28,209 nt of DNA, taken from a virus. Positions 57-19,100 of the stretch are shown here, piece by piece; position 1 is the first letter of the stretch, and each line of letters begins with the position of its first letter. A program made the translations under genes and the position numbers. The DNA is taken from positions 1-28,209 of IMG/VR virus record IMGVR_UViG_3300042306_001913. One strand, 5' to 3'. The notes under the pieces were generated by a model. That model ran no database searches and was not told where the DNA came from. It saw nothing but the letters and a program-made list of their open reading frames with translations.

Positions 57-175
57 TCGTTAATAGATTGTAGATAAGGATATTAACAATGAAATCCTTG
101 ATATATATAGGTTTTAGGCTTTGTTGATATTGTTAATGCTATCCCCCAATATTATTTTTTTTACACTCTTATTGT
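57..175. repeat. Repeat half-element A, copy 1
   Basis: This AT-rich stretch of about 120 bp recurs at 9161-9275 with roughly 85% identity by eye (shared blocks include GATATATATAG, TTTGTTGATA and CCCCAATATTATTTTTTT). It contains a 24-bp imperfect palindromic core at 67-90, with arms ATTGTAGATA and TATTAACAAT around a 4-bp spacer. The same core type occurs at 1487-1510, 9172-9195 and 9377-9400. The rest of 1-365 upstream of the FGE-fold gene shows no gene. I see the repeat directly. An operator, a recombinase site or a mobile-element end are all possible. Confidence 0.75.
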
Positions 176-1322: not shown

Positions 1323-1357
1323 CCCTTTTTCCCTTTTTCCCTTTTTACCCTTTACTC

Positions 1358-1377: not shown

Positions 1378-1420
1378 TTACCTCATATCCAAAAAAGGGG
1401 AAGTTATTATATCTTCTTTT

Positions 1421-1511
1421 CTTTTTTTTCCGTAAAGCATCAACGGCATCAACAAAGCCTGAAACCTAGTCAGGGTAAAGGTTTCGATTGTTAATAAGGT
1501 TATTAACAATC
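1421..1511. repeat. Repeat half-element B, copy 1
   Basis: Recurs at 9308-9401 (shared AAAGCATCAACGGCATC, ACAAAG and CAGGGTAA). It contains a hairpin (GAAACCT 1461-1467 with AGGTTTC 1479-1485) followed by a perfect palindrome at 1487-1510 (ATTGTTAATAA, GG, TTATTAACAAT). In the second copy the hairpin sequence differs but pairing is kept. At 9161-9400 halves A and B lie next to each other; here the FGE-fold gene lies between them. Confidence 0.75.
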
Positions 1512-1649
1512 AAATTACAAAAGAACAGAAGATATATTTGATACAAAAGTACCCATAGTGACACTTGATGAACTGTCACACTTCGCCAACACCTGCCGAG
1601 AGAATCGATTTATATTAGAAAAGTAATCAAAACAAAGAGGACAAATCAA

Positions 1650-1910
1650 ATGAATACAACATTGGTAAATGAAAAAATGCTAATGCGTCGTAATGATTTA
1701 TTAGACGAGTCGAGAAAAACTCAAAAAGTTAGAATAGCGTGGCATTTTCCCAAAATTGAACTGGCAGAATTTATAGATCGCGAAAAAGAATTATCTGGAC
1801 ACGGAAAATGGTTTGATTATAGCGAAATAGCTACTCTTGAAGCTTGGGTTCGTAAAATGAATAAAGAATATGACGACATATTCCATTATCTTCAATTTTG
1901 TGAGAAATAG
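1650..1910 (+). CDS. Small hypothetical protein (86 aa)
   Basis: An unrecognised 86-residue, charged soluble protein with aromatic clusters (AWHFPKIELAEFID, GKWFDYSEIATLEAW, YDDIFHYLQF). It has no membrane segment or signal peptide and no motif I can name. The start is supported by AGAGGA about 8 nt upstream of the ATG. It converges on the tail-tip gene, with stops 71 bp apart. An inverted repeat GTGACA/TGTCAC lies 70-90 bp upstream. It is plausibly a real phage accessory gene because of its ribosome site and protein-like composition. Confidence 0.6.
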   Translation: MNTTLVNEKMLMRRNDLLDESRKTQKVRIAWHFPKIELAEFIDREKELSGHGKWFDYSEIATLEAWVRKMNKEYDDIFHYLQFCEK

Positions 1911-1981
1911 CTTGTAATTATGCCCCTAAAATTACATCTCGCTAATCCCACTATGTCAGGCGATAATGGTCTTGATTCCAA

Positions 1982-4282
1982 TCAAATAATCGTTGCCAGT
2001 GATTCTTTAAAAGGTACTGGATAGCTTGAATTTTGAAAAACCCGTACTGTATAAGCCGATTGGACTGACCCCCAATCGGCTATTTGTTGTGCCTCTGTAT
2101 AAACGACGCTTCGGGCTGACGATACTGACCATTCTCGTTTTACTGTGGACTCGTCGTAAATTCTGACTACATAGCTGTCCAATTCTCCTGCTGCGTAAGC
2201 AATGTCGATATAGTCGATCCAACGACCATCTAACCGCGTCCGTCGATACCAAGTAATAATTAAATCGTTATTATCTTTTTCCCCTCTTACAGCACAAGGG
2301 AAAGGCTTCAATCCTTCTAAGGTGATTGTGTGAGAAACTTCCTCCTCTATATCAGTTTCAAGTAATCCATTAGGAACTACTTTTAATAAATATTCTCGAT
2401 TAATATCAGAAAGATTTAAGGGGAATCGAACTAAATAATTAGTTAGTAACACAAATTTTTCCCCTGTTATATGCCTAGAAATGGCTGGTTCAGTTCCCTT
2501 GACTCCACGAATTGTATATGAAATATCAAATGTCAAGGGATTGTTGGACACAATAGCAGCATTTTTAAAAGCTACAATTTCTCCAGTAGAAAACCAACCT
2601 AATTGTTTGCCTGACAAAAATGTTTCAAGGGTAACTGGCTCTAATTGCCCTGAATTTATGCTTACTCGTATCCAATTTAAATCGTCAATAAAACTAGGAG
2701 AAGCGTTGTTAAAATTCGGGGAGAAGCTTAATACAGTACCAGTTACGCTGTTGGCAACATTACCAACAGCAAAATCATAGCTTAATCCGTTGTCATCAGA
2801 ATAAAATAATGCTCCTTTCCTAAAACTAGAGTTACCTTCAATTGCCACATAAATTCCTATATCTGTATCTCGGCTGTTAACTATTGGGCATTCAATAGGA
2901 ATAGCGTTAGCGCGTCCGTAGGGACGAGGAGTGTTATTGTCTGGCGGAAATTCGTTATAGGAACGAGGAGTGTTATTGTCTGGCGGAAATTCGTTATCTA
3001 TAGGAATATCTGGCAAATATCCTACTCCTTGAAATCGAGTAGCTTCAATTTCAATTAAATAATTTACGCCTCTTACTTTTTTCGTGATTTGCATCAATTC
3101 CTGATGATAATTGTTATTATCATTAGTAAAAATTACATCCCCAACCTTTAAATTTTCCCATGCTGGTAATAAAAACATTTTTGAAAAAGTTTTTGATTGC
3201 GTTTTCCCTAAAAAAAGAATTTTTGAGGCAATATTCATGAAAAACATATCTATATCTATTAGCTTAGTTTGAAAACTAAGCTCGTTTGTGTGAGTATCTG
3301 ATGGGTCTTTAGCTACTGCAGTAATAGGTTCATAATTTTTTAAAACATTTAGCCCAGATACCGTAACAGCACTGGGAGTTTCTCTAAAATGAGTCAGTTT
3401 TTTTTCATTAATGTCAATAGGATTTTCTCCAAATTTTTTAGACCCAAAAGAGCTTTTAGGGATAAAAATAGGATCAGATGATTGTTCTTGTCTTTTAAAA
3501 ATGATTTTATCTTTTGGCTCCCTTGCTACAATAAAAAAAGCTCTCATAAGTTCTTCTAACTGATCAGCAAAAGATGTCCCATCAAACAATAAATCAAATC
3601 CTTGAATTCGGTAATCATCAGGAATGTCAGTCACATCAATTTGATCGTCTGTTCTACTAGCTAATTCACAAATAGTTTTCAAAATATCTTTTATTTTTGG
3701 ATTGTTTCCACTTTCTCCAATCACTTCAACATCAATAGTAGGAAATCCAGTGCCATCATAATTAGCAATCGGATAATTATTAAAAATTAAAAAAGACATT
3801 CCAGTAAAAGCAGGTACTGGATTAGATTCTTTTGACTGAATTACTGACGATGGTGTAGTTTGATTGCCAGTATAAATAGTTGTATGCTCAATAAACTTTA
3901 GGCTTTTTTCGTCATTAGTTTCGGAATTGTAAACGAGGACGCTGTTCATCCAAACCCGCCTAACAGAGCCAATTTTTCTAGCAATTGGATAAGCGGCTGT
4001 CAAAAAATAAGTGTAAACTTCGGTAGTTTGCCCACCACCACCACCTTTTCCGCCTTGCCTTTCGGATGTGACGACTTCCTTAAGAGGAATCCCCCACATC
4101 ATAGTTAGCCCTTCTTTCCTCACCCTTCCAAAAGGATAGGATAGGCTTCTGCCGTATTCAGCATCGGGAACACCAGTATCCTCAATTTTTCCTTTTTGTT
4201 GGGTAGGGGGTTTAGGAGCAAATAGAGATAATAATAGGTTAGCTCCGATTCCTATCGCTACGGGAATGAGAAAATTAGCCAC
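1982..4282 (-). CDS. Phage tail-tip/baseplate hub protein (gpJ/GTA-host-specificity-like)
   Basis: A 766-residue structural protein at the distal tail, expected to close the tail tube and contact the host surface. The N-terminus starts with a hydrophobic segment (FLIPVAIGIGANLLLSLFA), then PFGRVRKEGLTMMWG, a Gly-rich loop (GGKGGGGG, about residue 80) and a long mixed alpha/beta region that resembles the putative phage-tail (PF13550-type) hub family: a DILKTICELA segment, DDYRIQGFDLLFDGTSFADQLEELM at about 220-245, then LLPAWENLKVGDVIFTND. The C-terminal third looks like beta-rich Ig/FN3-like modules (ITWYRRTRLDGRWI, RIYDES). The start codon is GTG with no strong ribosome site, so the exact start is uncertain. 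A 13-residue unit (NEFPPDNNTPR plus two residues) is duplicated at about residues 428-453. The gene lies below the tRNA and is separated from the rest of the tail cluster by accessory genes. Confidence 0.8.
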   Translation of the reverse strand: MANFLIPVAIGIGANLLLSLFAPKPPTQQKGKIEDTGVPDAEYGRSLSYPFGRVRKEGLTMMWGIPLKEVVTSERQGGKGGGGGQTTEVYTYFLTAAYPIARKIGSVRRVWMNSVLVYNSETNDEKSLKFIEHTTIYTGNQTTPSSVIQSKESNPVPAFTGMSFLIFNNYPIANYDGTGFPTIDVEVIGESGNNPKIKDILKTICELASRTDDQIDVTDIPDDYRIQGFDLLFDGTSFADQLEELMRAFFIVAREPKDKIIFKRQEQSSDPIFIPKSSFGSKKFGENPIDINEKKLTHFRETPSAVTVSGLNVLKNYEPITAVAKDPSDTHTNELSFQTKLIDIDMFFMNIASKILFLGKTQSKTFSKMFLLPAWENLKVGDVIFTNDNNNYHQELMQITKKVRGVNYLIEIEATRFQGVGYLPDIPIDNEFPPDNNTPRSYNEFPPDNNTPRPYGRANAIPIECPIVNSRDTDIGIYVAIEGNSSFRKGALFYSDDNGLSYDFAVGNVANSVTGTVLSFSPNFNNASPSFIDDLNWIRVSINSGQLEPVTLETFLSGKQLGWFSTGEIVAFKNAAIVSNNPLTFDISYTIRGVKGTEPAISRHITGEKFVLLTNYLVRFPLNLSDINREYLLKVVPNGLLETDIEEEVSHTITLEGLKPFPCAVRGEKDNNDLIITWYRRTRLDGRWIDYIDIAYAAGELDSYVVRIYDESTVKREWSVSSARSVVYTEAQQIADWGSVQSAYTVRVFQNSSYPVPFKESLATII
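2924..3001 (-). repeat. 39-bp in-frame tandem duplication in tail-tip gene
   Basis: Two near-identical 39-bp units (core AGGAGTGTTATTGTCTGGCG) encode two copies of NEFPPDNNTPR, which probably form a proline-rich linker between the hub and the C-terminal modules. The reading frame is kept. It could vary in copy number by slippage. Confidence 0.85.
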
Positions 4283-4316
4283 GGCTTTTTAAAAGATAGT
4301 ATTTTCTCTATTCTAA

Positions 4317-4389
4317 TAGGTTGAGTAGGAATCGAACCTACCTAAGACGAATTATGAGTTCGTTGCCTTAACCGCTCGGCCATCAACCC
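4317..4389 (-). tRNA. tRNA with CAU anticodon (elongator Met or Ile2)
   Basis: A complete 73-nt cloverleaf on the minus strand. The acceptor GGGTTGA pairs with TCAACCT (first pair G-U), the D-stem is GCC/GGC, the anticodon stem ACGAA/TTCGT is perfect with loop CTCATAA, the variable loop is CTTAG, and the T-stem GTAGG/CCTAC is perfect with loop TTCGATT. The discriminator base is A and no CCA is encoded. CAU may be read as Met, or as Ile for AUA if lysidine-modified; sequence alone does not decide. It lies 35 bp upstream of the tail-tip gene and 6 bp beyond the stop of the HigA-like gene, consistent with co-transcription. Confidence 0.93.
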
Positions 4390-4394
4390 TTGAC

Positions 4395-4805
4395 CTATTT
4401 AGGAAAAAATAAAGTAGGAGAGATATTAAAAAAATCGGCTAATTTTTGAACGTGAATATCTGTTATCTCTCGCTGTCTATCAAAAATATCATCTAGGATT
4501 GATTGATCCTCAAAAATAGATAATAAGTCTTGCTTTTGCAAGTTCTTTAGTTCTAACAAAAATTTCAATAGCTCAACTCCATAAATATCAGGTATTGGCT
4601 TTTGATTTTCCTCATACTCATAAATCAAAGTTCCTAAAACACTTAAATACTCCCTTTCTTCTATTGTCAATTGAATTTTATCTAATATGATTTTATCTAA
4701 AAAAGAACTGATAACTCTTTCCGTGTTTTCTAGCTCTTCCTTGTCGTAAATAGGACGAGGAGGGTATTGTTTTAATAATTCTAAGTATTTATTTGTATCA
4801 AACAT
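4395..4805 (-). CDS. HigA-like antitoxin / XRE-type helix-turn-helix protein, no toxin partner
   Basis: About 136 residues from the start I prefer (MFDTNKYLELLKQY). A longer ORF starts at 4838, but the family usually begins at this point and neither start has a clear ribosome site. The layout matches cyanobacterial HigA-type antitoxins: an N-terminal helical region (LTIEEREYLSVLGTLIYEYE) that binds the toxin, then a C-terminal helix-turn-helix (LLKFLLELKNLQKQDLLSIF through HVQKLADFFNISPTLFF). HigA proteins neutralise HigB mRNA-cleaving toxins and repress their own operon. No HigB-like ORF occurs on either side, so this is an orphan antitoxin that may counter a host toxin, or simply a regulator. 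It lies 6 bp upstream of the tRNA. Confidence 0.72.
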   Translation of the reverse strand: MFDTNKYLELLKQYPPRPIYDKEELENTERVISSFLDKIILDKIQLTIEEREYLSVLGTLIYEYEENQKPIPDIYGVELLKFLLELKNLQKQDLLSIFEDQSILDDIFDRQREITDIHVQKLADFFNISPTLFFPK

Positions 4806-5201
4806 AGTGTGACTGTAATCGCTGTAACTTTTTATCATAGGTCAAGTCTTTGATTTTGTCAATATGTTTGATTTTAAGTGGGTTGGGCTGGATTTGCACT
4901 AGCGTGGAATTAAATCTACAGATTAACTATATTAGATTTATTCTCTGTAAAAATTAAGATTACACCAAAAGGAATCTTTCCAAAAATTTATCAATTGTAT
5001 ATTTTTTTCAGCTATTAATTTTCGCCAAAGACGAAAATTCTCAAAAAAATTATACCATCCAAAAGGAACATCTTCTCTAAGGATAGTCCAAATAATAGGT
5101 AAATAGCTTTTGATAGTCATGACAGCAATCAAAAGGTAATAGTTTATTTGTTTAGTCTTTTTCGTGTCTTAATAGTCTTGACTTTATTTAAATCCTACCA
5201 C

Positions 5202-5396
5202 TTATTTTACATTTAACTTTTCAAAAGTTAATCCTAAACAAACTGCAACCCAAAGCCAAATATACCAAAACCTGAAAAACAACTCTGACCATGTTAGCTG
5301 TAAGTTGTTAAGTCTTATGACAGTAAATACACAGGTAAAAATAATTAAATTTACAGCCACTAATAAATAAGGTTTTTTCTGTTTTTTAGACTTCAT
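5202..5396 (-). CDS. Possible small two-helix membrane protein (64 aa)
   Basis: A 64-residue ORF with a basic start (MKSKKQKKPY), a first membrane segment (LLVAVNLIIFTCVFTVI), a short polar link and a second (FFRFWYIWLWVAVCLGL), ending KLNVK. Size and two-helix shape would fit a small phage membrane protein such as a holin-like or accessory protein, but there is no family motif and no convincing ribosome site. It could be chance in AT-rich DNA. Confidence 0.35.
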   Translation of the reverse strand: MKSKKQKKPYLLVAVNLIIFTCVFTVIRLNNLQLTWSELFFRFWYIWLWVAVCLGLTFEKLNVK

Positions 5397-5445
5397 TTTA
5401 GTTTAATTTTTTTAGGTGTTCTATGTTACTTTACTACAATTAAAG

Positions 5446-5580
5446 TTATTTGTCTATAGTTTTGATAAGAAAATAAATTAAATTTATCTTTTCTGCTGTC
5501 AGTGTTTTGATTTTCATTAAAATTTTTACTAATTTATCCTTAAGTTCTTTTTTAGTGGGTTCTGTGTCACTTGGTTCATA
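5446..5580 (-). pseudogene. ORF fragment next to the TnpB-linked repeats
   Basis: A minus-strand open frame of about 45 codons (beginning YEPSDTEPTKKELKDK, ending LIYFLIKTIDK, stop at 5446-5448) has no usable early start codon and begins where the outer 37-bp repeat ends. The Lys/Glu-rich helical composition looks protein-like. It may be the 3' remnant of a gene cut by insertion of the tnpB element, or chance. Confidence 0.25.
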
Positions 5581-5616
5581 CTTGCAATCTACTTAACAAG
5601 TCAAGCCGATTGTTAC
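5580..5616 (-). repeat. 37-bp direct repeat, outer copy (TnpB-linked)
   Basis: Identical to 5652-5688, with 35 bp between the copies. Read on the tnpB strand it runs from GTAACAATCGGC to GATTGCAAGT. It can form a small nested stem: CAATC with GATTG outside, ACTT with AAGT inside. The position downstream of tnpB matches where the right end and guide-RNA scaffold of IS200/IS605-type elements lie. Confidence 0.85.
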
Positions 5617-5651
5617 TATTAGTAGGGATTAGCTCTAAAAGCTTCTCTTTA

Positions 5652-5688
5652 ACTTGCAATCTACTTAACAAGTCAAGCCGATTGTTAC
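5652..5688 (-). repeat. 37-bp direct repeat, inner copy overlapping tnpB stop
   Basis: Exact copy of 5580-5616. Its first bases (on the tnpB strand) include the tnpB stop codon TAA at 5685-5687. That overlap is typical of TnpB omega-RNA scaffolds, which run through the 3' end of the gene. Two copies with a 35-bp gap also imitate a one-spacer CRISPR array. Confidence 0.85.
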
Positions 5689-7370
5689 CCAGTCTCCCAG
5701 AGTGTTAGCTGCGTATAGCCTGCGTTGACTGTTTGCGCGGGTTGCGAGTGGATCGACCTTTTCCTTGTTTTTTTCTTGGGTGTCACTGGCTCGGAGGTCA
5801 AAACCAGTAAGGTTTCGAGGGTTTCTTCGCCGAGTAACAATCGGCTGGACTTGTCAAGTAATTCCTCCTGCGCTGATTTCTTATCGAAATCCTTCAGAGG
5901 CTTAACTTCCCCAGTACAAGCCGGGTAGCTTCTTACGAAGGCTGCTTTCCCTAAGATGTTGATTGCGGCGGCCACATCTCTGGGTAAAGTACATCCACAC
6001 TCTAAACATTTATGGGTGCGGGTTGATAAACTTTTTTTAACACGATTGCCACAGCGAGGACAATCCTGACTGGTGTAAGCTGGTTGAACTTTGATAAACT
6101 CTCGGTTGGGAGTTTTCATTTTCGTTTCAAGAAAACCGGTTAATTGTCCTAAACTAGCATCAGCAAAGGATTTATTTAATCCCCCTTTGGCTTTCGCGTT
6201 ATTGCGTTCGTAGCCTTTACCGTCTTCTCTTTTTTTCGGTTTAGGTCGTCGCATTAAATTCTTTAAGTTGAGGTCTTCTACGGCTACAGCGCCATGATTT
6301 TTGACAATATCGGTACTTAGGGCATGATTAAATCCTTTGCGTTGTCTTGCTATTTTTTCGTGAGTTTTAGCAACTTTAGCACGAGTTTTAGCGAGATTTT
6401 TGCCGTCTTTATTTTCCCCTGCTTTATACTGTCTAGCGGTTTTTCTTTGCAGTCTTGCTAGTCTTTTTTGCTGTTTTCTATAGTATTTGGGCGGGTCAAT
6501 TTGTTGGCCGTCGCTGGTACTAATTATATATTCTAGTCCTACGTCAATACCGATTGCTTTATCGGAATCAGGTAGATCATCTACTTCAAATTCACCAAAT
6601 AGACTTAGATAATATCCCGATGGGTATTTGATAATTGATACGGTAGAGGCTTTTCTGTCACCCCATCGAATGTCTAAAATATTGTTGATAATCTTTAAAT
6701 CGCCTAATGTTTTACTACAGCTACCTATAGATATTTTATCCCCTTTTCTAACAGCGCAATTGCTGATCTCAGAATAAAGAGATTTAATTTTATCTTCTTT
6801 TCTTTTAAATCTAGGAAGTTTCCTGTCTAAATTCTTTTTATCGAGTTTGGTGTAAGCTTTCCAGGAATCAGCAAGCTTTTTTAAAACCCCTTGGACAAAA
6901 GCCATAGGGATGTCCTTGCATAGTTCTGGACATTTTTCTTTTGTAATACAGCCACATAACCCAAAATAATTATCAGATTTTAACCGCCGTTGAATAGGGA
7001 TATGAACAGGATAAGAGTAACCTGCTTTTTGTCTTTTTTCTCTAGCTATCTGTATTTTAACTTTTTGCTTGCCAGTTAAATATTTAGGGGTGTAAAGGGG
7101 ATTAGGAAGGGATTTACCTTTTTCGTTTTTCAGGGAGTCAATAAATTGAGGTTTTTTAGCTAAACGACGTTTAACCCGTTTAACTGGTTTTCCTGTTATT
7201 TGCTCAAGCTCGTCGTAATACTTATTAAGCTGATATTCCATCAGTAGCTCTAGCCCAAAATTCCAGACAGCTTTAAGCTCGTCCATCCAGCGATCAATAT
7301 AGGTTCGCTGAGTGGCATTAAGGTTAAGTTTTATGTCCGCAATAGTTTTTTTGACTAGCATGGCTTTCAT
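5685..7370 (-). CDS. tnpB: TnpB-family RNA-guided nuclease (IS200/IS605 OrfB-like)
   Basis: A protein of about 561 residues (start at 7370, where GAAGG lies 6 nt upstream; the frame is open to an ATG at 7388, but the promoter would start transcription there). Numbering from 7370, the RuvC triad is complete: D276 (GIDVG), E365 (VEDLNL) and D465 (RDVAAAIN). The zinc ribbon is CPRC at 437-440 and CLEC at 455-458. The N-terminal half is helical and basic, with a Cys-containing insert (LCGCITKEKCPELC), and there is a C-terminal extension of about 90 residues, so it is longer than the usual ~400. TnpB cuts DNA with a guide RNA made from the element's 3' end. No TnpA is present, so it may be mobilised in trans, domesticated, or a Cas12-like relative. 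Confidence 0.88.
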   Translation of the reverse strand: MKAMLVKKTIADIKLNLNATQRTYIDRWMDELKAVWNFGLELLMEYQLNKYYDELEQITGKPVKRVKRRLAKKPQFIDSLKNEKGKSLPNPLYTPKYLTGKQKVKIQIAREKRQKAGYSYPVHIPIQRRLKSDNYFGLCGCITKEKCPELCKDIPMAFVQGVLKKLADSWKAYTKLDKKNLDRKLPRFKRKEDKIKSLYSEISNCAVRKGDKISIGSCSKTLGDLKIINNILDIRWGDRKASTVSIIKYPSGYYLSLFGEFEVDDLPDSDKAIGIDVGLEYIISTSDGQQIDPPKYYRKQQKRLARLQRKTARQYKAGENKDGKNLAKTRAKVAKTHEKIARQRKGFNHALSTDIVKNHGAVAVEDLNLKNLMRRPKPKKREDGKGYERNNAKAKGGLNKSFADASLGQLTGFLETKMKTPNREFIKVQPAYTSQDCPRCGNRVKKSLSTRTHKCLECGCTLPRDVAAAINILGKAAFVRSYPACTGEVKPLKDFDKKSAQEELLDKSSRLLLGEETLETLLVLTSEPVTPKKKTRKRSIHSQPAQTVNAGYTQLTLWETG

Positions 7371-7397
7371 GAATCGACCTTCTTTCATTCTTATTTA

Positions 7398-7427
7398 AAT
7401 ATACCATAAGCTTTATAGAAATGTCAA
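7398..7427 (-). promoter_or_regulatory. Sigma-70-type promoter of tnpB
   Basis: On the minus strand, -35 TTGACA (7427-7422), an 18-bp spacer and -10 TATATT (7403-7398). Transcription would start near 7391, just ahead of the tnpB ribosome site. The whole box is an imperfect copy of the promoter at 7978-8007. Confidence 0.65.
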
Positions 7428-7436
7428 GTAAGAAGT

Positions 7437-7934
7437 CTAAAGATTTTTTGGGATACCAGTTCCCACATCAGAACCTATAGCCCAACCCTTATAAAAGTTA
7501 AAGGCAGTAGTATCAATATGAAGGGGAAACCCTAAAGCTTCCCAGTGTTCTAATAGTCTTAGTACATCAACAGTCTGAACCGTGTAATTTAATCCTGTTT
7601 CAGTGATGATAAATTTTTCAAAAATCTCTGGGGCAACTAAAACAGAACAATAGTTAGTGTCGTCAAATTTACCAGACTTTTTAGCTAATTCAGAAGTAAT
7701 TGCGATCAAAATTTCTTTTGTAAGTAATCTTTCTTGCGATATATTGCGACTATCTAAGCTATTCCAAGCGGTAAATTTAACAATATAATCAAATTTTAAT
7801 TCTGTTTGATCTTTGGCAATTTTTCCAGTTACTCCATAAACAGGAGCATTAAAATTTTGTTGCACTTCTGGAGAACCAGTTACTCCATAAACAGGAGCAT
7901 TAAAATTTTGTTGCACTTTTGGAGAATTAGACAT
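7437..7934 (-). CDS. Hypothetical protein with duplicated NFNAPVYG N-terminal repeat
   Basis: A 165-residue protein. Residues about 5-38 are two copies of a 17-residue unit (VQQNFNAPVYGVTG plus three). This Asn/Pro/Tyr/Gly motif is familiar from the N-termini of many cyanobacterial proteins, often ones tied to signalling or conflict systems, but I know no defined function. The remainder (about 40-165) is a mixed alpha/beta domain (FDYIVKFTAWNSLD, LLTKEILIAITSELAKKS, YTVQTVDVLRLLEHWEALG) that I do not recognise. A clear promoter (7978-8007) lies 44 bp upstream, and tnpB follows with its own copy of that promoter. Confidence 0.65.
   Translation of the reverse strand: MSNSPKVQQNFNAPVYGVTGSPEVQQNFNAPVYGVTGKIAKDQTELKFDYIVKFTAWNSLDSRNISQERLLTKEILIAITSELAKKSGKFDDTNYCSVLVAPEIFEKFIITETGLNYTVQTVDVLRLLEHWEALGFPLHIDTTAFNFYKGWAIGSDVGTGIPKNL
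7825..7926 (-). repeat. 51-bp tandem repeat (two copies) in the 165-aa gene
   Basis: Two adjacent 51-bp units (7825-7875 and 7876-7926) differ at very few bases and encode the duplicated 17-residue NFNAPVYGVTG block. The near identity at DNA level suggests a recent duplication. Confidence 0.9.
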
Positions 7935-7977
7935 AACTTGTAGTAAAAAAGATGCTAAACTATATTTGACTAACTTA

Positions 7978-8007
7978 AATCTACCATAAGCCTACTAGAA
8001 ATGTCAA
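7978..8007 (-). promoter_or_regulatory. Promoter of the 165-aa gene, overlapping the RHH start
   Basis: On the minus strand, -35 TTGACA (8007-8002), an 18-bp spacer and -10 TAGATT (7983-7978). The -35 box lies within the first codons of the plus-strand ribbon-helix-helix ORF at 8001, giving an overlapping divergent arrangement. A diverged copy lies at 7398-7427 before tnpB, with shared ACCATAAGC and AGAAATGTCAA. Confidence 0.6.
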
Positions 8008-8153
8008 ATGAAAATAAAGATAAAAATTATTATCCTCTTAACGTCCGTACATCAGAATCAGAAGAGAAAAAGCTAAAAAAATACTGTAAAGCCCGGAAGC
8101 GGTCAATAACCGAGGTAGTCCGGGAATTGATTAGAAGTTTACCCGATGACTGA
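8001..8153 (+). CDS. Ribbon-helix-helix (CopG/Arc-like) mini-protein, 50 aa
   Basis: A 50-codon ORF encoding MSNENKDKNYYPLNVRTSES followed by two helices (EEKKLKKYCKARKRS, ITEVVRELIRSL). The order is that of ribbon-helix-helix DNA-binding proteins: a short beta strand (YPLNVRT), helix A, a turn with Ser-Ile-Thr, then helix B. Such dimers repress promoters and often their own. The gene runs divergently from the 165-aa gene and overlaps its -35 box, and ends 31 bp before a strong terminator stem. No clear ribosome site is seen, so expression is unproven. It could control the two matching promoters at 7398-7427 and 7978-8007. Confidence 0.6.
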   Translation: MSNENKDKNYYPLNVRTSESEEKKLKKYCKARKRSITEVVRELIRSLPDD

Positions 8154-8183
8154 TACTCAAGGATGTTATTGGGATAGCTAACA

Positions 8184-8217
8184 TTAAAAGTGCCAGTTCA
8201 CAGACTGGCACTTTTAA
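8184..8217. terminator. Bidirectional intrinsic terminator
   Basis: A perfect 14-bp stem (TTAAAAGTGCCAGT with ACTGGCACTTTTAA) with 6-nt loop TCACAG. A-tract and T-tract at the ends make it functional on both strands. It lies between the plus-strand RHH gene and the minus-strand antirepressor-like gene, whose stop is at 8220. Confidence 0.88.
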
Positions 8218-8219
8218 CT

Positions 8220-8981
8220 TTATTCTCCGATTAATAGCTGACGGTTTCTAGCCTTAGAAAAAAGCTGCTTAACTTCCTTGAGGTTTTCGGTGGGGACATA
8301 GGATGCTTGATTAACTCGCAACCCCTGACACACTAAATGAGAGCGTCCATTCTTCTCTAACCAACGCTCTAACTCTCTTCCAGACTTGAATCCTAGTTCT
8401 TTCCCTAACTCAGCAGTAGAACGACCCTCAAAACTCACGTTTCGTCCGTTTTTACAGATAATTGTCTCGGTGACTTTTTCAACCTTCTCGATCACAATAT
8501 CTGGACGGCCATCTAACAAGGCTAAAACCTCAGCACCATGTATTAATCGAATTGCGTCACGCCGATCCATATAATAGGTTTTGGCTTTTGTCAGTTCTAA
8601 CTCAAGTTCTAATTCTCGAATACGTCCACTTTGAGCGGGGATTACTTCTTTAACGATGCGTTCGCATTCAAGAAAATATTTTCGGATCACTTTTCCCTGT
8701 TCCGTCCCGGCCATCATGCCCAGTGACTTAAAACAATCGATAGTCAGAAAGATTTGTTCGGTACGAGAAGCCGTCAAACCATTGCTGTGAGCGACACTCA
8801 TCCATTTGGATAAGTAGTCTGTTCCTGCATCAAAATTGCGAGTTAACTTTTTTCGGCAAGCTTGTTTACTTGAGTATCCCAACCATTGCCAAGCTAACTC
8901 AAAATCTACGGGGAATAACTCCCCACTGTCCACTAGAGACTGAGCAATTGATTGAGAAAACGGTACAATATCAATAGCCAT
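8220..8981 (-). CDS. Phage antirepressor-like protein (AntA/AntB or MSV199-type)
   Basis: A 253-residue protein. Residues about 25-115 match the N-terminal domain of phage antirepressors of the AntA/AntB-MSV199-Bro group: ELAWQWLGYSSKQACRKKL, FDAGTDYLSKWM, then FLTIDCFKSLGMMAGTEQGK and VIRKYFLECERIVKE. A coiled-coil stretch (RIRELELELELTKAKTYYMD) follows. The C-terminus looks like a DNA-binding or winged domain with TAELGKELGFKSGRELERWL. Antirepressors inactivate phage repressors or act as regulators; here a regulatory or host-takeover role is inferred. The start is firm: AGGAG lies 8 nt before the ATG. A possible extended -10 promoter and a GC-rich hairpin lie in its leader, and a terminator follows the stop. 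Confidence 0.78.
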   Translation of the reverse strand: MAIDIVPFSQSIAQSLVDSGELFPVDFELAWQWLGYSSKQACRKKLTRNFDAGTDYLSKWMSVAHSNGLTASRTEQIFLTIDCFKSLGMMAGTEQGKVIRKYFLECERIVKEVIPAQSGRIRELELELELTKAKTYYMDRRDAIRLIHGAEVLALLDGRPDIVIEKVEKVTETIICKNGRNVSFEGRSTAELGKELGFKSGRELERWLEKNGRSHLVCQGLRVNQASYVPTENLKEVKQLFSKARNRQLLIGE

Positions 8982-9012
8982 ATTGGACTCCTATTCAGTT
9001 AATGTGGTTAGT

Positions 9013-9031
9013 CCCCCGGTACTAACGGGGG
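9013..9031 (-). promoter_or_regulatory. GC-rich hairpin in the antirepressor leader
   Basis: CCCCCG (9013-9018) pairs with CGGGGG (9026-9031) around a 7-nt loop in very AT-rich surroundings. It lies between the putative promoter and the ribosome site, so it could affect leader stability or translation. No T-run follows on either strand, so it is not a standard terminator. Confidence 0.45.
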
Positions 9032-9041
9032 CATTACTACA

Positions 9042-9050
9042 ATTGTACCA
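9042..9050 (-). promoter_or_regulatory. Possible extended -10 promoter for the antirepressor-like gene
   Basis: The minus strand reads TGGTACAAT (9050-9042), an extended -10 element. A good -35 is lacking (CGTCAA at 17 bp). Transcription would start near 9035, giving a leader of about 55 nt that contains the 9013-9031 hairpin. Confidence 0.4.
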
Positions 9051-9098
9051 TTTCACATAGTTGCTTGACGATTCTAGTCAGTAGGAAGAAATAATCAG

Positions 9099-9132
9099 GG
9101 AAAGAGGATTAAAATAATCCTCTTTCTTTTTT
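9099..9132 (+). terminator. Intrinsic terminator (plus strand)
   Basis: GAAAGAGGATTA (9100-9111) pairs with TAATCCTCTTTC (9115-9126) around a 3-nt loop and is followed by TTTTTT. The T-run is on the plus strand, yet no plus-strand gene precedes it within the intergenic region. It may end a small unannotated RNA or protect against read-through. Confidence 0.7.
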
Positions 9133-9160
9133 AGTGTCCTATGCTGGCAGTCATTGTTAG

Positions 9161-9275
9161 ATTGTTAATAGATTGTAGATATTGTTATTAACAATAGAAC
9201 CCTTGATATATATAGCTTCTAGACTTTGTTGATACTGTTAACGCTATTCCCCAATATTATTTTTTTACGCTCTTA
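9161..9275. repeat. Repeat half-element A, copy 2
   Basis: Second copy of the element at 57-175, with the palindromic core ATTGTAGATA-(4)-TATTAACAAT at 9172-9195. Half-element B follows about 33 bp later, so here the two halves form a compact, gene-free unit. Confidence 0.75.
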
Positions 9276-9307
9276 CTGTTGAGGCTGTCTTTCCTTTTTA
9301 CCCCATT

Positions 9308-9401
9308 TTCTTTTTTCCTCTATAAAGCATCAACGGCATCTACAAAGTCCAAAACCGTTACAGGGTAACGGTTTTGGTTGTAGATAGGGTTATTTACAAT
9401 C
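9308..9401. repeat. Repeat half-element B, copy 2, with strong hairpin
   Basis: Second copy of 1421-1511. CCAAAACCGTTAC (9349-9361) pairs perfectly with GTAACGGTTTTGG (9365-9377) around loop AGG. Copy 1 has GAAACC/GGTTTC where this copy has AAAACC/GGTTTT, so one base pair changed on both sides. A core (GTTGTAGATA, 4 bp, TATTTACAAT) follows at 9377-9400. Confidence 0.75.
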
Positions 9402-9434
9402 TATCAACAATCCAACTTCCCACGGTATGGGTTC

Positions 9435-9746: not shown

Positions 9747-10181
9747 CTATGATTTTACCACTCCTGAAGCAGGTACTCGATAAACCAGTACAGGCGGGTA
9801 TTCATGAATATAGGTCTTCATCACGCCATTTATTGAGTCAGCATGAATATACTCCCCATCTCCTAAATAGATGCCTACATGACCATCTACCCCTGACTTA
9901 TGGAACATTAGAACATCACCTTTACACAGATCACCTTCAACCCTATCTAGTAAGCGATCAAGAAATTTGACTAAGAAGTTATTCCGGGGAATCCGTTCGT
10001 AGTTTTCAATAATGAAATCATGGGGCAAGAATCCGACTTTAATCCCCACGCCAGCGATAAATCCTACACAATCGGTTCCAATACCTTTGAGGGATTGACC
10101 ATGAAACCAGGGAGTACCGAGCCATTCAAGAGCTTCGGTAACAATTTGATTACCCAAAGAATCGTTTTTTAGTTCGTTCAT
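9747..10181 (-). CDS. NlpC/P60-family tail peptidase (gpK-like)
   Basis: A 144-residue papain-like cysteine peptidase covering one NlpC/P60 domain. The catalytic Cys is C38 in GTDCVGFI, the His is H101 in DGHVGIYLG, and a third polar residue is H113 in YIHADS. The TPWFHGQS segment before the Cys is typical. The family cleaves peptide stems of peptidoglycan (D-gamma-glutamyl-diaminopimelate bonds). In lambda-like phages the equivalent (gpK) belongs to the tail tip and follows the tape-measure and minor tail genes. The start overlaps the end of the tape-measure gene by 32 nt, which supports translational coupling. Confidence 0.88.
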   Translation of the reverse strand: MNELKNDSLGNQIVTEALEWLGTPWFHGQSLKGIGTDCVGFIAGVGIKVGFLPHDFIIENYERIPRNNFLVKFLDRLLDRVEGDLCKGDVLMFHKSGVDGHVGIYLGDGEYIHADSINGVMKTYIHEYPPVLVYRVPASGVVKS

Positions 10182-13100
10182 TTTGTGTATTTTCCCGTTC
10201 TTTTAATTGATTCAAACTATAACCCATATCATTCCGTGATTCTACAGTCACGTTATTGGTGTTATTAATTACCAAAGACTGATTAGAGTTATTGTTATTT
10301 GAGGTTGTGGAGTAATTAGGCTTACCCCCGACAAATCCCCCATTAGCATAGTTCTTAATAGGAGCATTATTTCTGTAGTCTAGATAAGCTTCTGTTTCTT
10401 TAGGGGTAAGAACCAATTCGCCTTCATTAGCTACGATTAATCGAGGTTTTCGGCCTCCCGACATTGCTCGTTCGCGCTGAAAAGCTGAAATGATATTTTT
10501 CTCTATCGGAGCATTGGCATCCCCAACTTTTCCACCATCACTAAATAGGCTGAATCCTGTACCTAGAGAAAAGGCAGAAGCCGGAGCAGAAGCAAAGCTA
10601 GAGGCTCCTATACTACCAAGTGACCCAATCGAACCAAGTCCGCCTAGTCCCCCACTAAAAATCCCTGTTATTCCACTAAGTAGCCCGTTAAATAAGCCAC
10701 CTCCGCCACCTCCCCCAAAAATAGAGGAAAAGATGTTACCTACTGGTTTAAAGATACTGTTTAGGGCATTAGTAAAGAAGTTGCCTACTGGCCCGATGAT
10801 TGCATTAAATACTGACTCAAATGCCTGAGTTATTGGTTTAGTAAAACCATCGATAGCAGAAGTTAGGGCATCGATAGCAGGCTTGGTAATACCCTCGACA
10901 AATTTAGTTGCAATATTTAAGCCAAGACTACTAAAAGCTGATCCTATTCCTTTTCCTTCTCTAATATCAGAGAAAAAGCTTTCAGCTGCGCCACGATTTG
11001 GAGAAGCGTCTAGCTCCGCTCGTTCTAACCTTAATTCTGCAAGCTTTTCCCATTCTGAGCGGATATTAGCTACAAAATCAGCGTATTGTGGTAAGTCTTT
11101 GTAAGGTTCTAAATAATCCTCTAGTTCTTCTTTTTCTTTTTGTAGGCTAATACGTTCGGCAAGGATAGCAGAATCATCAAATAGAGTCGGTCGGGATTGA
11201 TTCTCTAGCTTCAATCTTTGAACAGTTAAATCATTTAACCGATCACGGATACTCCTGACTGTATCTCTGGTTTTTCTAAACGATGCTTCTAAGGTAGCTA
11301 CTCCCTGATTCTTGCCTAATTGTTCAATTGCTTGATCAAGAATTGCTACCTGTTCTTTAGCTAATTCAGCGTTTTTAGCTAAAACCTCGATACTATCTGT
11401 CATTTCTTTGATAAATTCAGGGGGGAGAGCTATACCTTTTCTTTGAAATTCTCCTAAGATTTCTTTTATCGCGTCGCTGTATTTTTGTTGAGCCTCAGCA
11501 TTTAAAAGTAAAGTCCGTCGCTGGTCTTCTAGTGATTCAATCTGAGAGCGATATTGTCGAGAGACTTCTGTAGCACTCTTATTAATTTCTTCTTGTACTG
11601 TCAGATACCCTTTAGAGTTGATAGTCAAATCAGCGACATTCTCGGAAGCATCTCTTAAAGTACGTTCTAATGCACGGGCATCTTCCTCTTGCTGCCGTCT
11701 AAATTTCATTGATCTGTCAAGAGCATTGTTTAGATTTTGTTGCTCTTCTAGCCGTCTTAAGAACTCCTCAGCGTTTTGGTTGGCTGTTTCAGCGTTGCGA
11801 ATTTGATCAGCCGCTGCGCCAAGATTACCTGTAGGAAGATTAGGAACGGGCGGTAAATTAGGACTCTGGAAGTTAATCGGATTGTCTTTAAGAACCGGTG
11901 GTAAATCGGCGTCCCAGAAATTATCTTGATTTTGATTAGGTAGAGTCGGTAATTGGGCTATGGGTGGGGGACTACTAAATTCTGGGCCGCCTTTTCCTTC
12001 TTTTGTTTCTTCTTTTGTTAAAACACGGGCAGGAGAAGGGTTAGGGGTGGAGTCTTTAATGGATTGGCTAATTGCATTAGTAGCATTAGTTATTATTTTT
12101 CGATTATTTAGTTGATTGCCGTTAATGTTTGCATAAGCAGTTACAATATATTCTTTCCCATTAATGTTTACCAGTCCAACGTTACCAATAACTTTAGAGT
12201 TATTTCCAATTTTTCCGCCGATTTCATTATTATACTTAAAATTTCTTGTTTGCCTCAGAGATTGTTCAGCTAATTGACTTGCAGGATTTTGATTTTTAAT
12301 TAAAGACTGCATAGCTAACGTTACGTCTTGTGCTGTTGAAATGTTTGGAGTTCCACTGCCTGGTATATTTAAATACCTAGAAATAGTAGTGTTTTTATAA
12401 CCTTCTTTTTTGGCTAATTCTGTAGCTCTGGTTAGCCCACCTAGCTGATCAATTAAAACATTAGTTGCCGTATTATCTGACTTTTCCAGCATTAATTGTA
12501 TTAACTGTTCAACTGTTCTAACTTGATTGGCTTTTAATTGTCCGTGTGGATCAACCAAAGGCGATTTTATGGCGATAGCATCTTTTAAGGAAAGTTTTCC
12601 GCTTGTTATTTCTTTGGCAATCAAATCAGCAATAATAACTTTAATTGTACTAGCTGGCGACGCTGGGGGTGTTTGAGCATTTTTAGAATATACAGTTTTT
12701 CCGCCAACTTCTTGAACTAAAACAGATTGAATATTTTTTGGTAATCTGTTGGTGATTTGTTGCTGAACTGATGGAGAAGGGCTAGGGGTGGAAATTGATG
12801 GAGTGGGTGAACCGCCTTGATTTCTTCTGATTTGTTGAATACGGTTTAATGCCCCGCTGTTAGCAGGATTGCCGTCATATCGCAGTGCGCCTAGTTCTGC
12901 TTGAGTACGGGGAGCATTGGGTTGATATTTTCCTAAAGACTGTTCATAAACTTTCAACAAGTCTTCCATCCGTTTCATGCCTTGCCCGGGGTAATTAGCC
13001 CCTGGGAAAGATGCCCATTCTTTGCGGGTTGCGTTAATTGCCCCACGAATATCTCCCTTAAGAAGCTCGTCCAATCCACCTCTCATTAAAATACGGCTTA

Positions 13101-16100
13101 ATGCGACTAAATCTTGAGAGAAAGAAGAAAAATCTTTTAATCCTAATTTCGCTTTTTCTTCATCCCATGTAAAATCCATGATCTGGTATCTTCCAGATGC
13201 CGATGAAGTGGTTGATCCAAACGGGATTCTTCGGCGTGGATGGTCTGCAAAAGAACTAAATTGTCCATGGCCAAAAAGGGTGTTATATCCTTGATTTGGC
13301 ATCTTGGCAGTACCTTCTGCGTAAGCAATAACATCAAGAAAGGCTTTGACGCGAGGATTGTTTAAATGCTGAGATAATTCTTGACCGCGTGGTGTTAATC
13401 CTTTGGGAATTGAAGACGACTGTGGCGGTGTCGGCGGTAAAAACCCTCCCCCATTCCACACAGGAGCAGGGGTGAAATTACTGGGAGCCGGTAATATTAT
13501 TCCTTCCTTAGCTTTTCTAATTGCCTCAGCAGTTTCCTCTATACTTTTTACTAAGTCTTCTCCAGAAGTCTTGATATTTGGGGGAATAGCCACTAACTCA
13601 GAATTGATTAATTTAATTGGCTCTGGAAGTGTATTAAGATTTGTGACAATATCCTTGATTGATTGGGGAATAAAGCCTAATTCTTTATTGGTTTGTCGGA
13701 TTAAATCAGCTAGAGTACGATTGAGGTTTTCTTGAGTCCGTTTAATATCCTCAATCGTTCTCAGTCTATTTCTTTCAGCGTCTTGCTGTTGCTCTTGTAG
13801 ATTACGGATATTTCTTAGAGTAGAGATATAGGAAGTTTCTACTTCCTCGGTTCGGGATTGGAAGGTGCGTCCGCGACTGGCAAGGTCAGCTTGTCCCTGG
13901 ACAAATTCTAGGAAAATTTCACCTAATTCTTTACCAGCGTCGCTTGTACCGGGTATCAATAACCGATTTTTAACTTGCTGTACCCTGATTCTATCAGTCG
14001 TATCTAGTAACTGATTTTGGGCATTCAAGAGGTTCTTATCGAGTTCCCTGACTAAATCACTGTAACTTTCAGATAGGGAACGATTCTCTTTAAATGCTGA
14101 CAGTTGAGCGTCTTCAATCTGTCTTCTATAATCTTCAATCTGACGATTAAAGTCGATTATCTGACGGTCAAGGTTGCGGTAATAGTCTTGTATTTGTTCT
14201 TGCTGATCTCTTAAAGATAGTTCGGTTTCAGCTATTTGCTGTGTGATATTTGCAATAGCTGTTTTTACTGCTAAAGGATCATCTACGTTTAATACTAATT
14301 TTTCTTGCTCTAAGGCTAATTGATTATAAAGAGCCGCTAAGTTTATCTTGGTTTGTTCCAGTCCGTAGCTAATATTTTGACTGGAGGAGGTTTTATTAGC
14401 TAGATTAGTGAGTTGTTCTGCTTTAACAATTTCTCCACTAGCTTGTTTTTCTTGTATTTGTCTTTTCTTTCTTTCGACAATAATCTCCCGACTAATTTGC
14501 TGAATTTCTCTCTCAGTGTTTAAAATATCTCGTCGAGCAGTTGCGTATTCTTTAGCCTGATTTAAAATAGCTCTTAAAGCGGCGTTGTCTTTTAGGTCAG
14601 ATTCATACTGATCCATTATTTGCTGAATAGCATCAGGAGAGAGTAAATTTTCAGCAATTGCTTCACCAAAACTCGCTACATTTAGCTGTTTTAAGTCTTC
14701 TTTAAAGTAAGTGCTTAAAACTTTATTGGCAGATTCAGATAGCCTTTCGTTTAAAATATTAGAGATAGAGTTAGCTGAATTGCCTAAAGTGGCAATACGC
14801 TCTTTAGCAGTCTGTAAGCTTTCTTCTTGAACTTCAACATTAAACTGAAATTCATTAATTTTCCCTGATGCAAATTGTTGATTTAATCCAATTGAACGAC
14901 TTAAACTATTTCCTTCATTAGCAAAATTAGCATTAGCTCTTGTTCTTATAGCAAGATCAAAGGCAACTTGTAATTTTCTATATTCTTTTTCTTGGTCTTT
15001 TAGGACTTGTAGATAATCTTGTTCTGCTTTTTTTAGTTGACCAATTATAGTTTCGAGTTTTGTTTTGCGTTGTATGTAAGCATTTTCAGCTATATCTCCA
15101 TTCTTATAGCGTTGCTCTAAGGATGCTAACGCTATCTCATATTGTTGAAGGTCAGCAGTAATTCTTGACCCAACGGGACCTAACTGTTTATTAATTAGTT
15201 CCTGTTCTTGCCTCATTAAATCCTGCTCTCGCTGGTTAAATTCAGCTACAGATCGGTCGTTTCCTTTTGCGCTTGCAATTGTTCTTTCTGCTCTGACTAA
15301 AGTTAAATTATTTCTGATTTCTTGTAATTCAGATGAAAATTGCTTGCTACCTGAAAAATTAGATAAAGTGTCTTGATATTCTTTGAGATTTCCGACTCCA
15401 GTAGCCAGAGATTTATCAATGTTTTTTATATCTGCATAAAGTTTTTGTATTGCGTTACCTTGCTTATAATTATAAACAAAACCTCCTGTTATAACATTAA
15501 AAAACTTTTCTACTCCAGACAATTCCATATCAGGCAAAAAGCTTGCTAAGCCTTTGCGATTACTGTTATCGGTTTTGTTTTGCCAAGCATCAAGAGCTTT
15601 TTTAGACTCTTCTAGGGTTTTTACAGATTGTTTTAGTTCTTCGCTACCAGCATTTAATGCGTTATAAACAAGTTGAATACCAGTTATCACCGCAGTAGGA
15701 ATAATCAATGCTTTAATTAATCCTATTCCTGCTAAAGTAGCAAGGTTTATAGATACTTTTAGTTTACCCATTGCTGTAGCTGTAGATAGAGACGCTACTC
15801 CGGCAGCTTGTAAGGATGCACTCATAGCAGCACCGGCAACGGCTCCTAACCGACCCGCTGCCGCAAATTGCATGACTGATTTTCCTAAGAATCCCATGAC
15901 TGACAGTAACCCTGCGGCTCCCACTGATGCCACAGTCCCTAGATTGTCATTCAAGGTACTCAAGACGGCATTTAATGCCTGTAAAGCAGGGTAAGCGACT
16001 ACTCCAATTTTTTCCCCTAACTGCATTTGAAGCTGTTCGGTATTGTTCTGGAATCGAGAGATTTCCGATTGTAAAGTTTCAGTAGAAAGAGAAAGGCCTC

Positions 16101-19100
16101 CAGCACTCATCCGTTTATATTCAGCCGCTAATCGAGGTAAAACATCTTGTGCCAAGAGATTGCCTGCTGATGCTTGTTGATAAAATTGAGCAGTGGTCAG
16201 TCCCATTGATCGGGCGGCTACATTTAAAGCATCGTTTAACCCTCCTGACTCGCTCAATTGCTGTGTGAATTCTTCAACGGAAACAACAGCTTTAGAGGCT
16301 ATTTGCCCGATAGCTCTAAAAGATTCAGCTTGCTGTTGGGCATTGGTTTGTCGCGCTGCCAATGCCTCTTGGAATCCTTCAAAAATATTATCTGCCTGCG
16401 CTTGTAGTGGAGAATCAGTAGTAATTAATTTGAATCTGCTATAAGCAATAGCAGATTCTTTAAAGGATATTCCTAATTTGTCAGCCCTTGCCACTAAAGC
16501 GTCAAGAGATTGTTCTACGCTGCCTACACCGGCAAGATTTAAATTTAATTTAATTCTTTGTAACTCAGTAAAGGCAAGTAAAGAATCAGTAACAGCTTGT
16601 TGAATCCTAAAAGGAATATCGTCAATAGCAAAAAGTAGAGGTCGCAATAAAAATTCTGCTCCTTTGAAAAGAGCAAATCCCCCAATTGCCGCCATAGCAC
16701 CTTTACGAAGATTGATCATACCTCCTGTAGCGGCATTAAGTTCTTGGTCGAGAGTTCTAAGTGCTTTGCCACCAACCGAGAGGAAATTAATAAATCCGTC
16801 CGCTTGGGCAATAACGGCTTTTAGTCCAGTTACGATGCCGTCTGTAAAGCCACTAGAAACGCCCGCTTTTTCAATGCTATCGAGAGCGTTGAAAATGTTG
16901 TCTCGTTTTTTATTCCAGTCATCAAGAATTTCTTCTCTTGTTGTTTTTGGACGAGCGATGACAGTAGCTCGCTTCATCACTTGAAAAGCGCGGGGAGAAG
17001 CGAAAATCCCTGTGTTCATCGAGCCTTGAATCTCGTTGATAACCGCTAGGCGTTCCCCTCGGTCTAGTCCCATTTCTTTAACAGCTTGAAGAATCGCTTT
17101 TCGGGCTTCTTTTGACCTCGTCCCGACAAAAAAAGTAAAATCGCTTACCTCTTTATCGAATTGAGTCTCTAGCCTTAATCCGAAGCGAATATGACGCGCC
17201 CCTAACGCTAATCCTTCATAAAAAAACCGCATTGCTTTCATCGCTTTTTTAGATGGCGAAGCATTCCCCAATCCTTTATTTGTTGCATCAACTATTTCAA
17301 TTGCAGTTTGATAGGCTATTCTTTTGGCATCGTCGCTGTTTACTCCTATTTCTAAACCTTTCTCAAAATTACTGGCTCCTGCTTTACCAGCAACAAGCAT
17401 TAGTTCTGACATATCAGCGCCGATTGATTTAACAATTGTTCGCAATTTTGACTGTTCGTCAAGGAGTAATGCGCTTAACTCAAAAAATACATCTTTTTTC
17501 TGTTTGCCGCTAATTATAGATTCCCAAGCTTTATACAGCCTTTCAAATTCTGCAATGTTTTGCTTAAGGCTCCCTGGCATTATTCTTTCTTGTGCCATTT
17601 TGTCATCGCCAAACATTTTATCAAAATCACTAGCATCAGGTTTGTTTACTAGAATAGTGTCATGCAATTCTACTCCTTTCTGCGAAGCTAGTTCTATTAC
17701 ATCATTTTCGAAAGGTTTGGCGGTACGGCGATTATCTCCCCCTTGATTACTCCACCCAAAAGCTCCTGCTCCCGTTAAAAGAAAATCGTCCCACAATTGT
17801 CCTTCTACACCATAAGTCCATATATCTCCCGATGGTTCACCTATTTTATGTTTTTTGAAAAATTCTGGAATATTTACATCTTTTAAATATTCGCGAGTTT
17901 CATGATAGCGGCCTTGCCCACCTCCACGGTATTCCCCAGTTTTGTCATAGTGGCTGTATTCACTTGCACCACGTCTAAAAGAAGCTAGGCTGTCACCAGG
18001 ATGGAGAAACATTTTATCGGGATTAAATAACCCTTCTAAAGCTACTGGCTCAAAACCTCCGTAATTATAGACCGCCAATCTTGTTTCTGATTGTGTTCGT
18101 GGAAAAGCGTTTCCTTTCCAGACACCGTCTCCAATGAATTTATTAGCTGCGTTTTGATGCCACAACCCGTAAATAGGATTGACATTGCTAGAAATATCAT
18201 CAGGTCGCATTTGAGATTCAACTTCTTGCCTTAATCCTCTGTCTTTATTGCTATTAGGATGTAAAGCTTGATAACCATCTTCTAAAATACTTTCTAGATG
18301 TTCTCTTTTGGCATAAATTAAAAATTTTGCGTCTTGTTTTTGATTAAGTTGCAATCGTTCATTTACGTCTTGAAGAAACTTATCAAAAAATTGCACATAC
18401 AATTTTGCTTGTTCTTTTGTTCCTATTTCAAGCCCTCTTATCAAATTTCTACCCGCTTCTTTACCCTTCCAAGACGGTGAAGCATTCCCCAATCCTTTAT
18501 TTGTTGCGTCGATAATTCCAATCGCAACATCTAAAGCGTATTTTTCGCTATTATTATTTTGTAATCCAATATTTAACCCCTTAATATAATTTAACCCAGA
18601 CTGTTTGCCATCACTGGAAAACATCGAACTAATCGCTTCAAGGTTTTTTGCGAATACTGGAACGCCAGCACTTAAAGAAGATGCAATAACTTCAATGAGT
18701 TTGCGTCCGTAAATATTGTACTTTTCTTCTATATCGCCTAAATTAATGCCTAAAAAATCAGACGGATCAATTTTGCCAGTAGTTTGAACCTCAAGGTATT
18801 CAAGTATCTCATTAGGTCTGCGATTGTATTGGTCTGGTGTAAAGCTAGACAAAGGATTTGTTATTATCTCGCTTGGATTTCTCCAAAAAGCACCAGAGTC
18901 ACCTCTAGTAAATGTTGATCGGTTGGCAATTTTTGCTATATCGAGCATTATTTCAGCATCGCCATAGTAATCATTTCCTTTGATCGGTTCGGAAAAAGAG
19001 TTAATTGCGCTATAAGCAACAGGTTCTTTGAAAACTTGTTTTTCAAAATCAAATCTGTCTCTTCTTAAACTCCATTGATTAAAAGTAGGGTCTATTCCTT

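Follow-up and report, generated by a model that had tools for sequence, protein, structure and literature searches.

The locus and the anatomy of the element

The window analyzed here, a viral record of 28,209 bp, contains two copies of an element of about 245 bp, termed sites I and II (Table 1). Each copy consists of a half A followed by a half B in reverse-complement orientation, forming an imperfect inverted repeat in which the two oppositely oriented halves flank an A/T-rich spacer. At site II half A is homologous to the reverse complement of half B, and at site I a single gene lies between the arms. Each half is itself an array of iterons with the consensus TGT-NN-AT (TGTNNAT), laid out as direct outer copies 11 bp apart, an everted pair within a palindrome (P1) and a tandem core pair 9 bp apart, with a loose dyad (P2) placed between P1 and the core. 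The whole element folds with about -70 to -84 kcal/mol. Long-range pairing between A and B was considered as a functional structure and rejected, as there are fixed differences between the halves, for which homologous arrays are the better reading.

The starting point was the P2 hairpin of half B at site II, which a preliminary description had correctly placed within one half of a repeated element. Its arms, CCAAAACCGTTAC (9349-9361) and GTAACGGTTTTGG (9365-9377), enclose the loop AGG (9362-9364) and form a stem of 13 bp, longer than the six pairs originally recognized. As single-stranded DNA the segment 9349-9400 folds with -15.6 kcal/mol (z -7.0), and none of 200 shuffled sequences folds equally well. 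The palindrome described beside the hairpin as a 24-bp one does adjoin it; in this copy, however, the arms TTGTAGATA (9378-9386) and TATTTACAA (9391-9399) carry one mismatch. In half B of site I P1 is perfect, as a 26-mer.

Table 1. Coordinates of the element and neighboring features in the window
Feature	Position	Strand	Remarks
Half-element A, site I (left arm; iterons, imperfect P1, P2, core)	57..144	+	HMM match 81 bits; repeat D1
FGE-sulfatase-like cargo gene between the arms of site I, 318 aa	366..1322	+	PF03781, E 3e-57
Half-element B, site I (B1, right arm)	1433..1518	-	HMM match 82 bits
P2 dyad of B1, GAAACC 1461-1466 / GGTTTC 1480-1485	1461..1485	-
P1 palindrome of B1, perfect, GATTGTTAATA-AGGT-TATTAACAATC	1486..1511	.
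Tail protein gene C8, B side of site I	1982..4282	-	phrog_4271, E 4e-88; within the segment inverted in one lineage
RHH-like protein, 50 aa	8001..8153	+	PF01402, 18.6 bits, below the 20.5 cut-off; homologues in 41 loci
Antirepressor-like gene, 253 aa, A side of site II	8220..8981	-	PHROG anti-repressor Ant, E 1.3e-7
Terminator-like hairpin outside the element, site II	9097..9129	+	served as control
Half-element A, site II (left arm)	9163..9248	+	HMM match 77 bits
Half-element B, site II (B2, right arm; holds the hairpin)	9322..9408	-	HMM match 79 bits; aligned with 68 others
Core of B2, tandem direct iterons CTTTGTAGATGCCGTTGATGCT	9326..9347	-	near-invariant alignment columns; used for the search pattern
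P2 dyad of B2, 13-bp stem, loop AGG	9349..9377	-	perfection peculiar to the window copy and close kin
P1 palindrome of B2, imperfect; two everted iterons	9376..9401	.

Four syntenic sites in a group of uncultured siphophages

A core pattern derived from the four halves in the window was used to scan IMG/VR and returned 72 stretches, of which 71 carry A and B halves and one (L048) is a chance match; two protein-based scans supplied further loci. The element-bearing genomes are 82-90 kb uncultured siphophages, and wherever both ends and the flanks are readable the inverted A...B pair occupies the same gene junctions. With A on the left, the four syntenic operon junctions are: 1) site I, C12(-) / A B / tail gene C8(-); 2) site II, antirepressor C19(-) / A B / C26(-), NlpC(-), tape measure(-); 3) site III, C3(+) / A A' B B' / C0(+); and 4) site IV, a C3-like or Bro-N gene(+) / A B B' / next gene(+), the last being seen in all seven long records. 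Transcription thus enters the element from B at sites I and II and from A at sites III and IV. Among the matches listed, four of the seven long records (G001, G003, G004 and G006) have all four sites, two others have at least three each, and the rearranged G007 retains at least a hybrid element and two sites. In G006 the arms of site I lie at opposite ends of the record, which suggests a circularly permuted map.

Outside this group the element was not recovered: blastn at E 0.01 against 50,697 phage and 72,556 plasmid records (named phages and plasmids) gave no match, and a scan of host genomes gave ten exact pattern matches in ten unrelated bacteria, a chance-like outcome. As none of these ten has a real half-element, no host was found. 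Two host cues, a TnpB about 31% identical to cyanobacterial plasmid proteins and an octamer in L044 that we take to be HIP1-like, are weak, and we therefore name no host. The literature searched held no existing description of the element, and within that literature the 245-bp element is a previously undescribed multicopy regulatory-type array.

Several other features were noted at these loci. The frame 10150-25710 on the minus strand (5186 aa) probably encodes the tape measure protein. Recent in-frame tandem duplications of 51 bp (7825-7926) and 39 bp (2919-2996) lie within predicted genes, and a 37-bp exact direct repeat (5580-5616, 5652-5688) with an inverted copy (5833-5860) is found beside and within a TnpB-like gene, where it is possibly an element end or a guide RNA region. 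In L030, tandem repeats of CTAATGTTCGGAGCTTG (9230-9310) lie just beyond the A side of site III.

Variation in P2 and P1

The two B copies of the window differ in their stems by a single exchange of A-T for G-C (AAAACC/GGTTTT at site II and GAAACC/GGTTTC at site I), as originally reported, and this paired change had been taken as a sign of selection on a DNA cruciform or RNA stem. From the related phages 68 distinct B and 44 distinct A sequences were collected. The pairing statistics use the 68 distinct full-length B copies in a gapless alignment, which with window B1 added from a shifted start has 69 rows of 74 nt; the alignment of A halves has 43 rows. Copies that misfit the gapless frame were left out, namely cut-off B copies and, at site III, the diverged inner A' and some of the outer A halves. 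Since the copies are related, P values from shuffles are not probabilities of independent events.

At the pair that differs between the window copies the 68 sequences have AT 21 times, GT 21, GC 16, AC 8 and GG 2, so that 37 are Watson-Crick pairs against 31.7 expected from independent arms. The other five pairs of the stem show almost no association (observed/expected 55/55.6, 68/68, 60/60.4, 41/38.8 and 66/66). Of the 68 copies, 18 have all six pairs of the stem intact, where 11.4 would be expected (sd 2.7, P 0.014, with arms re-paired randomly and relatedness ignored), an excess that is weak at most; allowing G-U pairs raises the count to 37 (expectation 33.1) for one strand and 24 (17.3) for the other. 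Stems of 11 bp or more occur in three of the 68. At P2 pairs 27-33, G-T (49 cells) and A-C (42 cells) mispairs are about equally common and close to expectation, so neither strand shows preservation of wobble pairs, which disfavors the RNA version of the earlier proposal. The further copies collected thus do not conserve the stem, the very finding that the preliminary description had named as speaking against its claim, and selection for a P2 stem is not supported.

The P1 palindrome behaves differently from P2 in that its arms match in 42 of 68 B copies against 24 expected, and two of its positions are clearly associated (49 observed vs 29.6 expected and 47 vs 34.0). By site, matched arms number 13 vs 13.4 expected at site I, 7 vs 4.6 at site II and 2 vs 2 at site IV, and at site III 13 vs 6.2 in the inner copies (n=16) and 9 vs 6.6 in the outer ones. 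In the A halves P1 is mismatched in 35 of 43. Taking P1 and P2 together, paired changes fill 72 cells against 32.9 in shuffles, and most of these come from P1. The excess of matched arms, overall and in the inner copies of site III, could also come from selection for dyad symmetry or for pairing.

Probable template switching and exchange between copies

A pairwise screen for copies that differ by an exactly inverted segment (at least four differences) recovered such inversions among B pairs at the center of P1 (55 of 2278 pairs) and of P2 (8 of 2278) and nowhere else; none was seen among the 903 A pairs. In L025 and L047 five of six differences amount to one inversion at the P2 center, and between L133 and L033 P1 has been inverted, mismatched arms included. 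The terminator-like hairpin at 9097-9129 offers a control: 32 of 38 loci (six of ten distinct sequences) have all 12 bp of its stem intact, and it too has copies that are identical but for an inverted loop (L111 vs L108; L197 vs L203). Exchange between copies is indicated by site I of L133 and L134, which has an extra B of the site II type, and by an A half with a B-like center in L038. Template switching is described as homogenizing arms and inverting spacers (PMC8604942) and as making compensatory pairs in one event (PMC8794818). Hence the paired changes probably reflect template switching and exchange between copies rather than selection of a stem; as these processes explain both the loop inversions and the paired arms, selection on pairing is not needed.

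Conserved iterons and regulatory neighbors

In the alignment of 69 B copies the motifs ATTGT..ATA....TAT..ACAAT and TTTGT..AT are invariant or nearly so, whereas P2 and the NN positions of the iterons vary. Invariant iterons around a variable P2 form the pattern to be expected of a protein-binding array rather than of a stem. Twelve of the 20 occurrences of TTGTHRATA in the window lie within about 470 bp of half-elements, against about 2.7 expected in the whole window, and the spacings between same-strand occurrences cluster at 9, 11 and 53-54 bp. The suggestion that the palindrome binds a dimeric protein fares better in this light, as its almost invariant arms look like a site for a dimeric or tandemly bound protein; the recombinase proposed as one such protein found no counterpart, neither tyrosine (PF00589) nor serine (PF00239) recombinases being detected in any of the seven long records, which may be incomplete.

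On the A side, three of the four sites adjoin antirepressor or related genes: Ant/Rha at site II, a Bro-N or 234-aa C3-like protein at site IV and a related 174-aa protein at site III. The C3-like neighbors of sites III and IV had no match to a regulator family, and C12, the A-side neighbor of site I, is not a known regulator. Other DNA-binding proteins encoded nearby are a PadR-like, a 67-aa Cro/C1-like and an RHH-like protein. In L012 and the rearranged records the antirepressor C19 is absent and the gene for the 50-aa RHH-like protein still adjoins A of site II; this protein is a candidate binder only. Some neighbors vary in domain content. The site II antirepressor has an exchanged N-terminal domain, Ant-like in the window and Rha (PF09669) in L038, and a Bro-N gene in L192 takes the place of the 234-aa gene of other records at site IV. 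Lysogeny and a classical repressor are unproven, because no integrase was found in the seven long records. A gene beside C12 in L197 (2597-3604) matches PF18897 (recombination directionality factor-like).

Rearrangement junctions and cargo

In the tally of C8 loci (REARRANGEMENT; n=85, counted as loci, some of which share one contig) 51 have the standard order with C12 downstream, 27 are unreadable and seven, from seven contigs, are inverted. In these seven, NlpC and the tape measure gene are in the opposite orientation and the tail/regulator segment of about 8 kb between sites II and I is flipped. The inversion, which concerns window 57-9408, was noted at L197 1851-2300, in L201-L203 and in L126 and L184, together with a hybrid element at one junction and loss of the antirepressor gene. 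A hybrid element in G007, G013, G014 and G017 consists of A(II), the spacer and the core of B(II), with a switch inside P2 to A(I); at the other end of the inversion, B(I) is cut off inside P2 (L126, L128 and L172) or absent. The four hybrid junctions are nearly identical, which suggests one ancestral event. Because real rearrangement junctions fall inside the element, a role in recombination at the DNA level retains some standing.

Cargo turns over at site I, where most relatives have no gene between the arms. The FGE-sulfatase-like gene of the window is flanked by a 20-bp direct repeat, GGACGTGAGGATTATCCCCC (273-292 and 1358-1377), and L015 has a gene-less site.

Weighing the explanations

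With roughly even chances, we consider the element to be an array of several operator or boundary sites at four operon junctions, to which a DNA-binding regulator of the phage would bind, and also a recombination junction. A structured RNA (a conserved P2 stem acting as attenuator, terminator or antitermination site) would fit the very stable fold of the window copy, the folds of the B halves, which on both strands are better than those of shuffled sequences (mean z about -3), and the position of the elements between genes read in one direction. It is improbable, however, given that the stem is perfect in so few copies, that five of its six pairs are almost unassociated and that wobble pairs are not preserved. 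Further, the A halves lack a stable fold, and the halves face opposite ways, so that one transcript would read one half backwards. No U-tract follows the hairpin, and a test for intrinsic terminators in 9322-9408 found no terminator-like site, the scan locating such sites at 9097-9129 and 8911-8924 instead; the former, with its mostly perfect stem, is a separate structure outside the element. Nor does Rfam give a match at gathering score other than a tRNA elsewhere (best 20.5 bits, E 0.77, vs 40). A DNA cruciform or site-specific recombination site for programmed inversion of the tail/regulator module is unlikely but has more to recommend it: the II-I segment is inverted in seven contigs, one and the same hybrid element with its junction inside P2 recurs in four records, B(I) is cut inside P2 in three loci, and inversions center on the palindromes. 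Against this, recombinases of the two families sought are missing from the long records, the four junctions may go back to one old event, the loss of C19 in the hybrids means that this is not a clean switch, an unrelated hairpin shows loop inversions as well, and short identical blocks common to A and B may be enough for homologous exchange.

Iterons belonging to replication origins or to a partition centromere would account for direct and everted AT-rich iterons with helical spacing, an A/T-rich spacer and four copies per genome, and we hold this reading to be about as improbable as that of a structured RNA. Four origins would be unusual, no initiator was identified, GC skew does not clearly switch in the window at 0-1.5 kb or 9.2 kb, and the ParA-type ATPase (PF13614) of an N15-type plasmid-prophage centromere was found in none of 12 records. 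Least probable by our estimate is a non-autonomous, MITE-like transposon with optional cargo, a possibility brought to mind by the long imperfect terminal inverted repeats and by the cargo genes between the arms of site I. All readable loci have the element at only the same four gene junctions, it was not found in the plasmids searched or in the host-genome scan, it has iteron arrays for arms, and insertions elsewhere that carry a target duplication were not observed.

Relation to known systems

The immI region of phage P22 contains ant together with the small RHH repressors Arc and Mnt. The present loci recall it in having an RHH-like protein of about 50 aa beside an antirepressor-like gene and repeated short sites, but here the RHH-like gene is convergent with the antirepressor and scores below the Pfam cut-off, and the arrays are four and distant. 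Boundary sequences between phage modules are likewise comparable, as the element too is a place where gene content changes and within which junctions lie, though in this case the boundary takes the form of an inverted-repeat array that is present in several copies in one genome and also permits inversion.

The SPBRE repeats of the Bacillus phage SPbeta are several intergenic copies in one phage that were first recognized in silico and are bound by MrpR (PMC10516654). The likeness lies in repeats that recur between genes at several places of a single phage genome, with a phage regulator as the likely binder; the SPBRE is a 15-bp motif, whereas the halves here measure 74 nt, contain several iterons each and stand as inverted pairs on either side of a spacer, and a protein resembling MrpR was not identified. 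The stoperators of L5-clade mycobacteriophages are single 13-bp sites, numbering up to 30 in a genome and mostly oriented one way with respect to transcription (PMC6550527). The element shares with stoperators repeated sites outside promoters, spread over the genomes of related phages, with sequence drift between phages. It differs from them in forming four near-symmetric arrays that are read from either side; a check of the stoperator type found no single main orientation relative to transcription.

Functional and evolutionary implications

Under the operator or boundary reading, a phage regulator would bind the iterons of the A and B halves, and the array would act on transcription at the operon junctions by analogy with repeated repressor sites in other phages. 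The repeats may double as recombination junctions, as a by-product or in a second role, in the turnover of cargo and in the one module inversion. A more ambitious version, which we regard as a long shot, is that of one dedicated phage system whose regulator binds all four arrays, silences or insulates operons, brings the arrays together and promotes exchange between inverted halves. If so, the tail-hub/antirepressor module could flip or swap cargo via exchange between inverted half-elements, and a single DNA element would serve both regulation and programmed rearrangement, with no classical recombinase involved.

The case also indicates that apparent covariation between two copies can mislead, as template switching in replicating palindromes yields paired changes and flipped loops without selection of a stem. 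In this respect the uncultured phage group provides many clean examples plus a nearby control hairpin, and its array flags the position of regulator genes and of a rearrangement junction.
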